Shown here: positions 24,814 through 63,229 of the stretch, piece after piece | How positions within the stretch are numbered: the first letter of the stretch is position 1 | Layout: every line of letters starts with the position of its first letter | Source: Bifidobacterium actinocoloniiforme DSM 22766 | GTDB taxonomy: Bacteria > Actinomycetota > Actinomycetes > Actinomycetales > Bifidobacteriaceae | Assembly: GCF_001263395.1 (NCBI RefSeq) | Contig: NZ_CP011786.1 | Span: 1,054,001-1,118,000 of the forward strand | DNA: 64,000 bases | Direction of reading: 5' to 3' | The notes under the pieces: model-generated | The model's database searches: none | The model's input: only the letters and a program-made list of their open reading frames with translations | What the model was told of the DNA's origin: nothing | Made by a program: the position numbers and the translations under genes

Positions 24814-24938
24814 CAGGGGTTTTACCATGCCTGGCGTTTTGGGAACCGTACGGGGTTGGCATAACCCCTAGTTGTTGTTTTGATTTTTCGGTCCAAGCGC
24901 TTGAAGGCACACTAAGGGCCCAATTGGAGGGGTTATGC
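24814..24938 (+). promoter_or_regulatory. Leader with attenuator-like hairpin and start-codon-sequestering helix
   Basis: A single AACCCC element at 24863-24868 has three possible partners. GGGGTT at 24852-24857 makes a hairpin followed by a T-rich run (TTGTTGTTTTGATTTTT). AGGGGTT at 24816-24822 would compete with it. AGGGGTTATGC at 24928-24938, which contains the Shine-Dalgarno sequence and ATG of the surface protein, is an exact 11-base complement of GCATAACCCCT at 24859-24869. A 14-codon reading frame (24829-24873 region, MPGVLGTVRGWHNP) ends inside the hairpin. A CG-centred palindrome CAAGCGCTTG lies at 24894-24903. Confidence 0.5.
24829..24873 (+). CDS. Possible 14-residue leader peptide
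   Basis: ATG near 24828 opens a 14-codon frame (MPGVLGTVRGWHNP) whose stop TAG lies at the base of the attenuator-like hairpin. GGGG stands 7 bases upstream as a weak ribosome site. Its overlap with the hairpin suggests a translation-dependent leader, but it may be chance. Confidence 0.25.
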
Positions 24939-27900
24939 GCTGCTACCGTTCTTTGAGTGCCATCGTGGCTCTCATATCTCTGATTGTCCTGGGGGGGGGG
25001 GGCAGTTTAGCACGACCCGCCCCAGCGCATGCAGACTCCGTATCCGACGCGCAAGGTTTCTCCCTCTCGCCAATCAAAGGCCCAGCGGAAGGTGGCAACG
25101 ACGTCGCTATTACACCGCCGTTCTCGACGTCAGTTAAGTTTAGAGACATTTATGTCGGCAGCATCCATACCGTAGCGGTGGACTCCAATGGAGACGTTTG
25201 GGCATGGGGCGCTGGAAATCTAGGACAATTGGGCAACGGTTCAACGAACGCTTCCAATAACCTGCCTGTTCGCGTTAGAGTTCCCAATGGAGTGAAGTTC
25301 ACATCCATTAGCGTCGGACTGTGGCATAACTTGGCGATCGGCACAGATGGACACACATATGCTTGGGGTTACAACGTTTATGGACAATTAGGAAATGATT
25401 CTTTCGACAACGCTTTGGAACCCCAAAAAGTGAAAACTCCCGGCAACGTAAAATTTGTTAGCGTAAGCGCAGGTGGAACATCCTCTTTAGCCATCGGGGA
25501 CGATGGGAATGCCTATGCGTGGGGTTTTAATAATAGCGGGCAGCTCGGGGATGGCACGATTACAAACCGCAATACACCTACCCCTGTCAATACTTCTGCG
25601 AAATTCGCTTCTATCAGCATGGGCGGTCGACACGCTTTAGCAATCGGAACCGACGGCAAAATGTACGCCTGGGGCGATAACTCCTATGGAGAACTAGGAA
25701 ACGGGACTCCCGGGACTAGCCAACGCACCCCAATCGCTATCGAAAACGCGCCGAAGTTTAATACCGTTAAAGCTGGCGGCACCGACAGATGGGGCGGTAG
25801 TTCATACGATTTTTCCCTTGGCATAGGTAAAGACGGCACAACTTACGCATGGGGGTATAACGGCGCAGGCCAATTGGGCATAGGTTCCACAGACGATAAG
25901 TCAGTACCTACGCCGGTGAACCCTCCTTTAAAGTTCTCAGCAATGAGTCCTGGCGCGTATCATGCTCTAGCTCTCACCAATGATGGCGATGCTTACGGGT
26001 GGGGCCAAAATAGTAGTATCATACCAACGTTTGAAAGTGCTGGAAACATCGGAGATGGGTCACGTGTGGATCGGCATAGCCCAGTTGCCGTTCAGAAGCC
26101 AGATAATGTTTCGCCGGATTTCAAGTTCGTTAGCATAAGCGCTGGTTGGTCTTCGTCTGCGGCAATAGGAAACGATGGGAACGCTTACGCATGGGGGACA
26201 AACACATCTGGGCAATTGGGAGATGGGACAAACACCCTGCGACTTCAACCTGTTCGCGTAGCCAAACCTAAAATCGCAGTCACTAGCGTCAGCTTCGATG
26301 GCATTAACGCGGGGACGATTACCCACGATCCGGCTACGGATTTATTCCATGTCAATGCGCCTCAGCACACGTCCCCCGGGAAGATACAGGTGCGGGTGGA
26401 ATGGACAGTGAACGGACAGGCTCAGACGGCGGCTGTGCTGGATTATGAGTATATGGCTTCGTATTCGGTGAGCTTTGACATGGCTGGGGCACCGGTCACG
26501 CCGCCAGCGCAGCAGCATGTGATGGATGGGCAGAAAGCTTCTTGGCCCACGGATGATCTCAAGTGGGACGGACACTGGTTTGGGGGCTGGGAACTCAATG
26601 GGAATGCCTACGACTTTACCCAGCCGGTAACCAACAACATTACGCTCAAGGCCCGGTGGGATTCGTATACGTTCACTATTTCACCAGTCAAGGGGCCCAG
26701 CACAGGCGGCGCACACGTTACCGTGACGCCCCCGGCTTTCGACGCAACGCTGACGCAGGTGAGCGCAGGCTGGTACCACTCGCTGGGCTTGGGGCGCGAC
26801 GGGAAGGTCTACGCCTGGGGGCGCAACGATGCCGGACAGCTGGGCGACGGCACGACCAGCAACCGTACTTCGCCGGTCGCAGTGCATATGCCAGGCGGCA
26901 TGAAGTTCACACAGGTCGTGGCCGGGCCGAACGACTCCTTCGCCCTGGCCGCCAATGGCTTCCTCTACGCCTGGGGTTGGAACAGCAAAGGGCAGCTGGG
27001 CAACGGGAATACGGTGGACCAGTCCACGCCCGTGATAGTACCGGTGCCCGAAGGGTCTACCAAGTACACGAAAATCATTCCCGGCCGCGAGCACACCTTC
27101 GCTGTGACCGACACTGGGGTCCTTTATGCTTGGGGCGGTAACGACCAAGGGCAGCTGGGCATAGGCACGGTTTACAACTCGCCGACACCCGTCAAGGTCG
27201 AGTTGCCGTCTGGTGTCACAGGTTTTACGCAGATTAGCGCAGGAAACGCGCACACGGTGGCCATCAGCTCTACAGGACAGGCCTACAGCTGGGGTTCGAA
27301 CGGTTACGGCCAGCTGGGTTCGACAGCCGTTACAGTCGGCGGGCGGTCCTTGTTGCCGGTCGCGGTCACTGCGCCCAGCGGGGTGTCAGGCTTCAAACAG
27401 GTGGTGGCCAGCAACGACTGGAGCCTGGGCATCAGCTCAAGCGGCCGCATCTACACCTGGGGCTGCAACAGCGCCAACCAGCTGGGTAACGGCAACGGCG
27501 CCAACCAGAGCGCGCCAGTAGCGCCTACGCTGCCAACCGGCCTCAGCTTCGACCAAGTGAACGTAGTAGGGGACAGCGCGGTGGCGCTCGCCAACTCCGG
27601 CGCGGCCTGGGCCTGGGGCGACAACCAATACGGACAGCTCGGCAACGGCAATCAAAGCAACCAGTCCAGACCGGTGTCAATCAACCCACCCAGCGGTGTT
27701 ACCTATGCCAAAGTGACGGTCGGCAAGCAGCACAGCCTGGCCATAGACACCACTGGCAAGGCCTGGGCCTGGGGCGACAACCAGTACGGGCAGCTCGGCA
27801 ACAGCGCTGGCGGGTCGGCCGGGAACCTAAGCCTGACCGCAGTGGTGATGACACAGCCAAAGCTGGTCATCACCAAAGTGCAGTTTGACGGCACTGCCGG

Positions 27901-28222
27901 CACAGCGCTGACCGCCAACTCTAACGGCACCTGGGGCGTCGATACGCCCGCCCACGTTGAAGGTCCCGTGACCGTGACCATCTCCTGGAGCCTGGCGAGT
28001 GCGCCGCAAACCGACTACAAAATCAACTCCTACACCTATTTCACTGCGTTCACGCTACCCAAGGCCGGAACGGCGCCCCTGCAGCTACTGACCGGGAAAA
28101 CGCTGCTTCTGGTGAGCGCGCTGGCGGCTGGCTGCTGCGGAGGGTATCAGAATGCTCGACGGAAGCAATCGCGCCGCAAACCGGAGCACAGCAGCAAAAA
28201 CGGGGTCGCTCGCATCGGCTGA
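24935..28222 (+). CDS. Sortase-anchored surface protein with two RCC1 propellers and poly-G signal peptide
   Basis: 1095 residues. Signal peptide 1-33, containing a 12-G DNA tract that encodes LGGGGS. Module 1: an IPT-like strand (FSLSPIKGPAEGG), seven RCC1 repeats with the xxYAWGxNxxGQLGxG core (about 55-440), then a beta domain (about 443-510). A Listeria/InlB-type B repeat follows (about 513-577, ending ITLKARW). Module 2 repeats the order: IPT-like, seven RCC1 repeats (about 595-980), same beta domain. The C-terminus has LPKAG at about 1041, a hydrophobic helix and a basic tail, a sortase anchor. Module 1 DNA is visibly AT-richer than module 2. Probably an adhesin or host-interaction protein (inference). 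No sortase gene in the window. Confidence 0.85.
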   Translation: MRCYRSLSAIVALISLIVLGGGGSLARPAPAHADSVSDAQGFSLSPIKGPAEGGNDVAITPPFSTSVKFRDIYVGSIHTVAVDSNGDVWAWGAGNLGQLGNGSTNASNNLPVRVRVPNGVKFTSISVGLWHNLAIGTDGHTYAWGYNVYGQLGNDSFDNALEPQKVKTPGNVKFVSVSAGGTSSLAIGDDGNAYAWGFNNSGQLGDGTITNRNTPTPVNTSAKFASISMGGRHALAIGTDGKMYAWGDNSYGELGNGTPGTSQRTPIAIENAPKFNTVKAGGTDRWGGSSYDFSLGIGKDGTTYAWGYNGAGQLGIGSTDDKSVPTPVNPPLKFSAMSPGAYHALALTNDGDAYGWGQNSSIIPTFESAGNIGDGSRVDRHSPVAVQKPDNVSPDFKFVSISAGWSSSAAIGNDGNAYAWGTNTSGQLGDGTNTLRLQPVRVAKPKIAVTSVSFDGINAGTITHDPATDLFHVNAPQHTSPGKIQVRVEWTVNGQAQTAAVLDYEYMASYSVSFDMAGAPVTPPAQQHVMDGQKASWPTDDLKWDGHWFGGWELNGNAYDFTQPVTNNITLKARWDSYTFTISPVKGPSTGGAHVTVTPPAFDATLTQVSAGWYHSLGLGRDGKVYAWGRNDAGQLGDGTTSNRTSPVAVHMPGGMKFTQVVAGPNDSFALAANGFLYAWGWNSKGQLGNGNTVDQSTPVIVPVPEGSTKYTKIIPGREHTFAVTDTGVLYAWGGNDQGQLGIGTVYNSPTPVKVELPSGVTGFTQISAGNAHTVAISSTGQAYSWGSNGYGQLGSTAVTVGGRSLLPVAVTAPSGVSGFKQVVASNDWSLGISSSGRIYTWGCNSANQLGNGNGANQSAPVAPTLPTGLSFDQVNVVGDSAVALANSGAAWAWGDNQYGQLGNGNQSNQSRPVSINPPSGVTYAKVTVGKQHSLAIDTTGKAWAWGDNQYGQLGNSAGGSAGNLSLTAVVMTQPKLVITKVQFDGTAGTALTANSNGTWGVDTPAHVEGPVTVTISWSLASAPQTDYKINSYTYFTAFTLPKAGTAPLQLLTGKTLLLVSALAAGCCGGYQNARRKQSRRKPEHSSKNGVARIG
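24991..25002 (+). repeat. Poly-G tract (12 G) in the signal peptide coding region
   Basis: Twelve consecutive G lie 56 bp inside the gene. Losing one G leads to a TAG within three codons of the tract; gaining one shifts into a frame that stops about 45 codons later. This is the layout of a slipped-strand phase-variation locus. In this sequence the frame is ON. Confidence 0.85.
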
Positions 28223-62728: not shown

Positions 62729-63205
62729 ATGAGCGTCGAACTGGAATCCATGAGCCCCTACGCCCAGTCCCTGGTCAAGCGCCTGGGCCTGGAACCCCAC
62801 CCGGAAGGCGGATGGTACGTGGCTGATTGGCTGAGTCCACGCGAAGACGCACCCTCGGCCCGCCCCCTGAGCTCGCTGATTTACTTCCTGCTGGCCCAGG
62901 GCGACGCTTCCGCCTGGCACAAGGTGGACGCGGACGAAATCTGGCTCTGGCACGGCCCCGCGACGGTCCAACTTGAGATCGGCGGCTACGGCGACGCCCC
63001 GGCCCAGGACCAGAACGACCACGAACTCATCACCCTGGGCTCCCAGATCGCCCACGGCGGCTCCACCGACGAGACCACCCCAGTGGGCCATTACGTCGTT
63101 CCCGAAGGTTGCTGGCAGCGAACCCTCCCAGGCTCCGGCGACGCCCTGGTCTCTTGCGTGGTCTCCCCCGGCTTCACTTTCGCAGGTTTTGAGTTGGAGC
63201 AGTAA
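62729..63205 (+). CDS. Cupin family protein (DUF985)
   Basis: 158 residues with a single beta-barrel. LGLEPHPEGGWYVADW at the start, SSLIYFLLAQGDASAWHKVDADEIW in the middle and VPEGCWQR near the end fit DUF985 (cupin_5). Metal ligands probably include the His in WHKVD and WLWHG. GAAAGGA lies upstream. Function unknown. Confidence 0.82.
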   Translation: MSVELESMSPYAQSLVKRLGLEPHPEGGWYVADWLSPREDAPSARPLSSLIYFLLAQGDASAWHKVDADEIWLWHGPATVQLEIGGYGDAPAQDQNDHELITLGSQIAHGGSTDETTPVGHYVVPEGCWQRTLPGSGDALVSCVVSPGFTFAGFELEQ

Positions 63206-63218
63206 CCCCGTTCCCCTG

Positions 63219-63229
63219 CCCCCCCCCCC
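63219..63229 (+). repeat. Poly-C tract (11 C) between converging genes
   Basis: Eleven consecutive C, 14 bp after the DUF985 stop and 113 bp past the end of the minus-strand ABC gene. It lies in no supported gene. Confidence 0.7.

Follow-up and report, generated by a model that had tools for sequence, protein, structure and literature searches.

We have asked whether a run of twelve guanines in the signal-peptide coding region of a large surface protein of Bifidobacterium actinocoloniiforme DSM 22766 acts as the switch of a phase-variable gene. The strain is a bumblebee-gut bacterium whose genome was assembled from Illumina MiSeq and HiSeq reads (PMC4582582); its chromosome comprises 1,830,060 bases. 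The run lies in a 64-kb stretch of this chromosome, called the window below, and feature coordinates given as ranges refer to the window. A preliminary description of the window had proposed that slippage in the run makes this surface protein phase variable. The comparative evidence presented here, all of it drawn from sequence, strongly favours a phase-variable translational switch. It also alters the scope of the proposal, which concerned a single gene: the feature is family-wide and is found in 48 RCC1 genes.

The gene and its G tract

The gene (24935..28222, + strand) encodes an RCC1-repeat surface protein of 1095 amino acids, and at 12 G its ORF is intact and in frame, that is, ON. The RCC1 assignment, judged by the Pfam match, is unambiguous: 13 RCC1 stretches were found in the protein (PF00415, E 2.5e-155), and these fall into two blocks (25187..26293 and 26798..27811, both + strand). 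The segment between the blocks (26294..26740, +) resembles a Listeria-Bacteroides (Flg_new-type) repeat by eye only; the window protein gave no Pfam match to PF09479 (Flg_new) at E 1, and NCBIfam yielded no match. A Shine-Dalgarno-like GGAGGGG (24926..24932, +) lies 2 nt 5' of the ATG, and a similar GGAGGGG precedes the ATG in several tract-bearing relatives of the gene. By inspection, the N-terminus is a Sec signal peptide, MRCYRSLSAIVALISLIVLGGGGSLARPAPAHA (24935..25033, +), with a likely cut after AHA. An AxA motif occurs no more than 22 amino acids past the tract in 42 of the 48 tract-bearing RCC1-family genes.

Near the C-terminus a motif resembling a sorting signal, LPKAG (28055..28069, +), precedes a hydrophobic stretch, after which comes a basic tail. 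The protein had been described as sortase-anchored. The hydrophobic stretch, the basic tail and the presence of three sortase genes in the genome (near 1458 and 1480 kb) are compatible with this, although LPKAG, which is kept in paralogs B, C and G (see below), differs from the textbook LPXTG. There is no sortase gene beside the window gene, which is flanked by an alcohol dehydrogenase gene upstream and a short-chain dehydrogenase gene downstream and is not part of a pilin operon with its own sortase.

The tract (24991..25002, +), the presumed slippage switch, begins 56 nt downstream of the A in the ATG. Its first G is the last base of the Leu19 codon (CTG); it then runs through three GGG glycine codons and ends at the second base of Gly23 (GGC), so that the residues encoded are LGGGG. 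Exactly 12 G and an ORF of 1095 codons were found, in agreement with the preliminary description, which had also predicted an early TAG with one G fewer and a stop with one G more. Translation of the altered window ORF confirmed both predictions: with 11 G the predicted product is a 24-residue peptide that ends in GGG GCA GTT TAG, and with 13 G translation ends after 67 residues. The products at 10 G and 14 G are 66 and 25 residues long, respectively.

No other G run in the window reaches a length of 7; the remaining long G/C runs there are C8 at 57713 and C11 at 63219. Under a first-order Markov model with parameters taken from the window, 0.085 G/C runs of at least 12 would be expected per 64 kb. 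Since the same model over-predicts shorter runs (27 of at least 7 expected vs 3 seen), the run excess is larger than the figure of 0.085 suggests. Run lengths have a heavy tail genome-wide, with 85 G/C runs of at least 7, 54 of at least 8, 45 of at least 9 and 36 of at least 10.

RCC1 paralogs in the B. actinocoloniiforme genome

Tracts at the same place were found in 6 RCC1 genes of this genome, of which 2 are in frame and 4 out of frame. The window gene (E) is in frame at G12, as is paralog A (chromosome position 1537, - strand) at G11. Paralogs B (57957, -), C (928051, +) and D (1191014, +) are out of frame at G11, and paralog F (1762038, -) is out of frame at G13, so that the tract lengths of the paralogs of the window gene are 11, 11, 11, 11 and 13. 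In paralog G (L098, at about 1.765 Mb, -) the tract site contains just 6 Gs; this gene is in frame and appears to be locked ON. The chromosome record begins inside paralog A (L009 and L099), which is therefore split in the linear sequence.

Identical DNA blocks of up to 1418 bp are common to paralogs A, B, C, D and G and lie between diverged parts; the A/B block is 1418 bp and the B/D block 976 bp (stretches L009, L011, L019, L025, L098 and L099). Genes E and F have no block of 40 bp or more in common with the other paralogs. The blocks suggest recombination among A, B, C, D and G, although short-read assembly could be an alternative source of such blocks. Among paralogs B, C and D, dN is about equal to or greater than dS, which fits the diversifying selection reported for this family, with the reservation that mosaic structure may distort these figures.

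One further RCC1 copy has decayed. Located at about 143.8 kb (L100, ~1.5-2.33 kb, -), it carries an internal stop and its 3' end is fused; the fused part looks like the 3' portion of an aldo-keto reductase gene. At the site occupied by the tract in living copies it reads GTGGGAGGAGCC, and the run has been lost.

Conservation of the tract in three genomes

An uninterrupted tract of G10-13 is present in 48 RCC1-family genes of this genome and two congeners, G001 (28 genes) and G021 (14 genes); the congener counts are of genes found among the RCC1 starts read, and 48 is accordingly to be taken as at least 48. Two additional G001 tracts, L235 and L237, with a start codon 55 nt upstream, were left out because they are not in RCC1 genes. 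In 47 of the 48 genes the distance from the ATG to the start of the tract is 56 or 57 nt, and in the other it is 64 nt. Mean pairwise identity of the flanks is 42% over the 50 nt upstream and 40% over the 30 nt downstream. The run is unbroken in all 48 genes, although GGA, GGC or GGT would keep the glycines.

At the deposited lengths, 22 of the 48 genes are in frame and 26 are out. In G001 the 8 in-frame genes all have 10 G and the 20 out-of-frame genes all have 11 G, a pattern that a systematic length error could mimic. All 14 tracts of G021 are of 10 G, with 12 genes in frame and 2 out. Orthologs of the window gene are in frame at 12 G, out at 11 G and in at 10 G; in the lineage of paralog F the corresponding states are out at 13 G, out at 11 G and in at 10 G.

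Could these lengths and out-of-frame calls simply be consensus errors in genes that are always in frame? Homopolymers of 10-13 are error-prone, and individual tracts could be recorded one G too long or too short since the deposited genome is an Illumina assembly. Annotated lengths are also known to differ in some cases from true length distributions (PMC9187656), and the offset from the needed length is exactly +1 in 20 genes of G001 and -1 in 3 genes of the B. actinocoloniiforme genome (G000). Against this, 48 genes whose flanks are about 40% identical have G10-13 at the same site, an observation that does not hinge on exact length; one assembly deviates in both directions (11 for a needed 12 and 13 for a needed 12); and the dead copy has lost its run. 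We thus consider an artefact unlikely.

The out-of-frame genes keep long intact bodies, for example one of 1077 codons in the ortholog of the window gene that is out of frame. Long homopolymers can cause RNA polymerase to slip, and intact bodies would also be expected if the tract were mainly a site of transcriptional slippage or ribosomal frameshifting, with both products made from one DNA length, and not a switch inherited through the DNA. Against this, the length of the DNA tract varies between orthologs and between paralogs, and the analogous device of B. breve varies at the DNA level, as found by maximum depth sequencing (PMC9187656). This explanation is, if anything, a little less probable than an artefact.

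Comparison of the window gene with its out-of-frame ortholog gave dN 0.288 and dS 1.212, a dN/dS of about 0.24. Both wrong frames reach a stop within 36 nt of the tract in 73% of the genes, vs 14% of the controls (1428 positions in the same gene bodies); because the genes are related, this does not amount to 48 independent trials, and all genes of this one family are non-independent observations. The least credible alternative, that the out-of-frame copies are decaying pseudogenes and that a glycine-rich signal peptide with neutral expansion of a G run explains the tract, draws on the 30 other long G/C tracts of the genome, most of which lie outside genes, so that runs can persist without selection, but it is very improbable in view of the intact bodies and low dN/dS, of off-frame stops closer than at control positions, and of a clear pseudogene that has lost its tract.

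The conserved position in 48 genes, the in- and out-of-frame copies with intact bodies, the quick off-frame stops and the loss of the tract in the dead copy all uphold the earlier proposal of a phase-variable surface protein. In our judgement G12 is very probably the switch of a translational contingency locus, one instance of a family-wide, slippage-driven ON/OFF device.

Proposed mechanism and its implications

Replication slippage would, we infer, add or remove single Gs in the tract. At a length that is right modulo 3, the signal peptide would be joined to the RCC1 beta-propeller body, making export and wall anchoring of the protein, and presumably its surface display, possible. At a wrong length, translation would end after about 22-67 codons, and changes of 3n in the tract would restore the frame. 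The ON lengths of 9, 12 and 15 G should all give the same mature window protein, since the tract precedes the predicted cleavage site. Because the same device is present in 6, 28 and 14 genes of the three genomes, a population should contain RCC1 proteins expressed in many different combinations. The switch is presumably of adaptive value.

At least 48 runs in three related species sit where one G more or less would toggle a protein, and these harmless bee symbionts therefore probably shuffle their surface proteins as some pathogens do. Five copies in this genome contain long identical blocks and may thus also be reshuffled by recombination. We lean, though not by much, towards an antigenic-variation-like system in bee-gut bifidobacteria, in which tens of RCC1 beta-propeller surface genes per genome each carry a poly-G switch at a constant position in the leader, recombination is possible, and a mutualist has, as part of the same reading, a very large combinatorial surface repertoire.

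If the switch reading is true, beneficial insect symbionts possess a family-wide repertoire of surface phase variation, with 28 tract-bearing loci found in one genome. The likely selecting force there would not be adaptive immunity but phages, attachment to the host and competition among microbes. The same reading would suggest that an apparent frameshift in an RCC1 gene of these genomes in some cases marks a switchable gene, and the RCC1 switch could readily serve for tests, the gut being simple and tractable.

Comparison with known systems

The window protein is a member of the RCC1-repeat wall-anchored family of bee bifidobacteria. This family has 19 copies in B. asteroides PRL2011, 7-24 per honeybee strain and, by an earlier count, 10 in B. 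actinocoloniiforme; its members are described as LPxTG-anchored and as being under diversifying selection (PMC3447821, PMC4449606). A Listeria-Bacteroides repeat (Flg_new, PF09479) before each RCC1 domain is a described trait of the family. A term search for phase variation, frameshifts and homopolymers in these two papers (PMC3447821, PMC4449606) yielded nothing. The slippage mechanism itself is already known; its use in the RCC1 family and its scale there are not described in the literature that we found.

The closest known device is that of the bifidobacterial pilins. G-tract switches are reported for sortase-dependent pilin genes of Bifidobacterium breve, B. longum, B. dentium, B. bifidum and B. 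pseudocatenulatum, including bbr_0113 and bbr_1889, and replication slippage in the tracts of the B. breve genes has been shown by deep sequencing (PMC9187656). Like the RCC1 switch, these are found in the same genus and consist of a G run (G8-13 in pilins) in which one G makes the difference between ON and OFF, and the tract separates the Sec signal from the remainder of an LPXTG-type protein. In the pilins, however, the gene with the tract is the first of a pilus operon that has its own sortase, and there are one to a few such operons, whereas the RCC1 tracts are in single beta-propeller genes, with up to 28 found in one genome.

The opa genes of Neisseria carry CTCTT coding repeats in the leader peptide that are subject to slipped-strand mispairing, and recombination takes place among the copies besides this switching (PMC4534519, PMC3960869). 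As in the RCC1 family, these are multi-copy surface proteins with repeats in the signal-peptide coding sequence. The opa repeat is a pentamer, while that of RCC1 is a G run; Opa are outer-membrane proteins of human pathogens, RCC1 proteins are wall proteins of insect symbionts; and switching has been measured in opa, whereas for RCC1 it is proposed here from sequence. The window protein has neither CTCTT leader repeats nor the outer-membrane type and is an analogue of Opa in mechanism only.

RCC1 genes of other bacteria

The sample from ten more congeners comprised 15 stretches, each selected for the RCC1 genes in it. A tract of G11-15 near the N-terminus is present in about half of the RCC1 ORFs sampled, and an open frame of more than 1.5 kb follows 21 of the 24 runs of at least 9 in these stretches. 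In the examples that were read closely the run comes after the signal peptide, not inside it, and the frames are again mixed. A contig scan for RCC1 matched mostly distant proteins of other phyla; inspection of its loci for tracts covered Bifidobacterium and a few other actinobacterial loci.

Other long G/C tracts

The B. actinocoloniiforme genome has 30 other G/C tracts of at least 10. Of the 29 checked against an ORF listing, 24 are outside any retained ORF; the remaining 5 fall within ORFs, 116-366 codons long, that we judge to be spurious or over-extended. Convergent genes flank at least a dozen of the other tracts. The reading of the RCC1 tract as a mere part of a general excess of G runs was rejected because most of the other tracts are outside ORFs and at least 12 are between convergent genes. 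The C11 run of the window (63219-63229) is located 13 nt past the stop of a gene for a 158-residue protein (62729-63205, +) and precedes the 3' end of a gene on the opposite strand. Another congener, G026, has 394 overlapping matches to G10, far above the other congeners.
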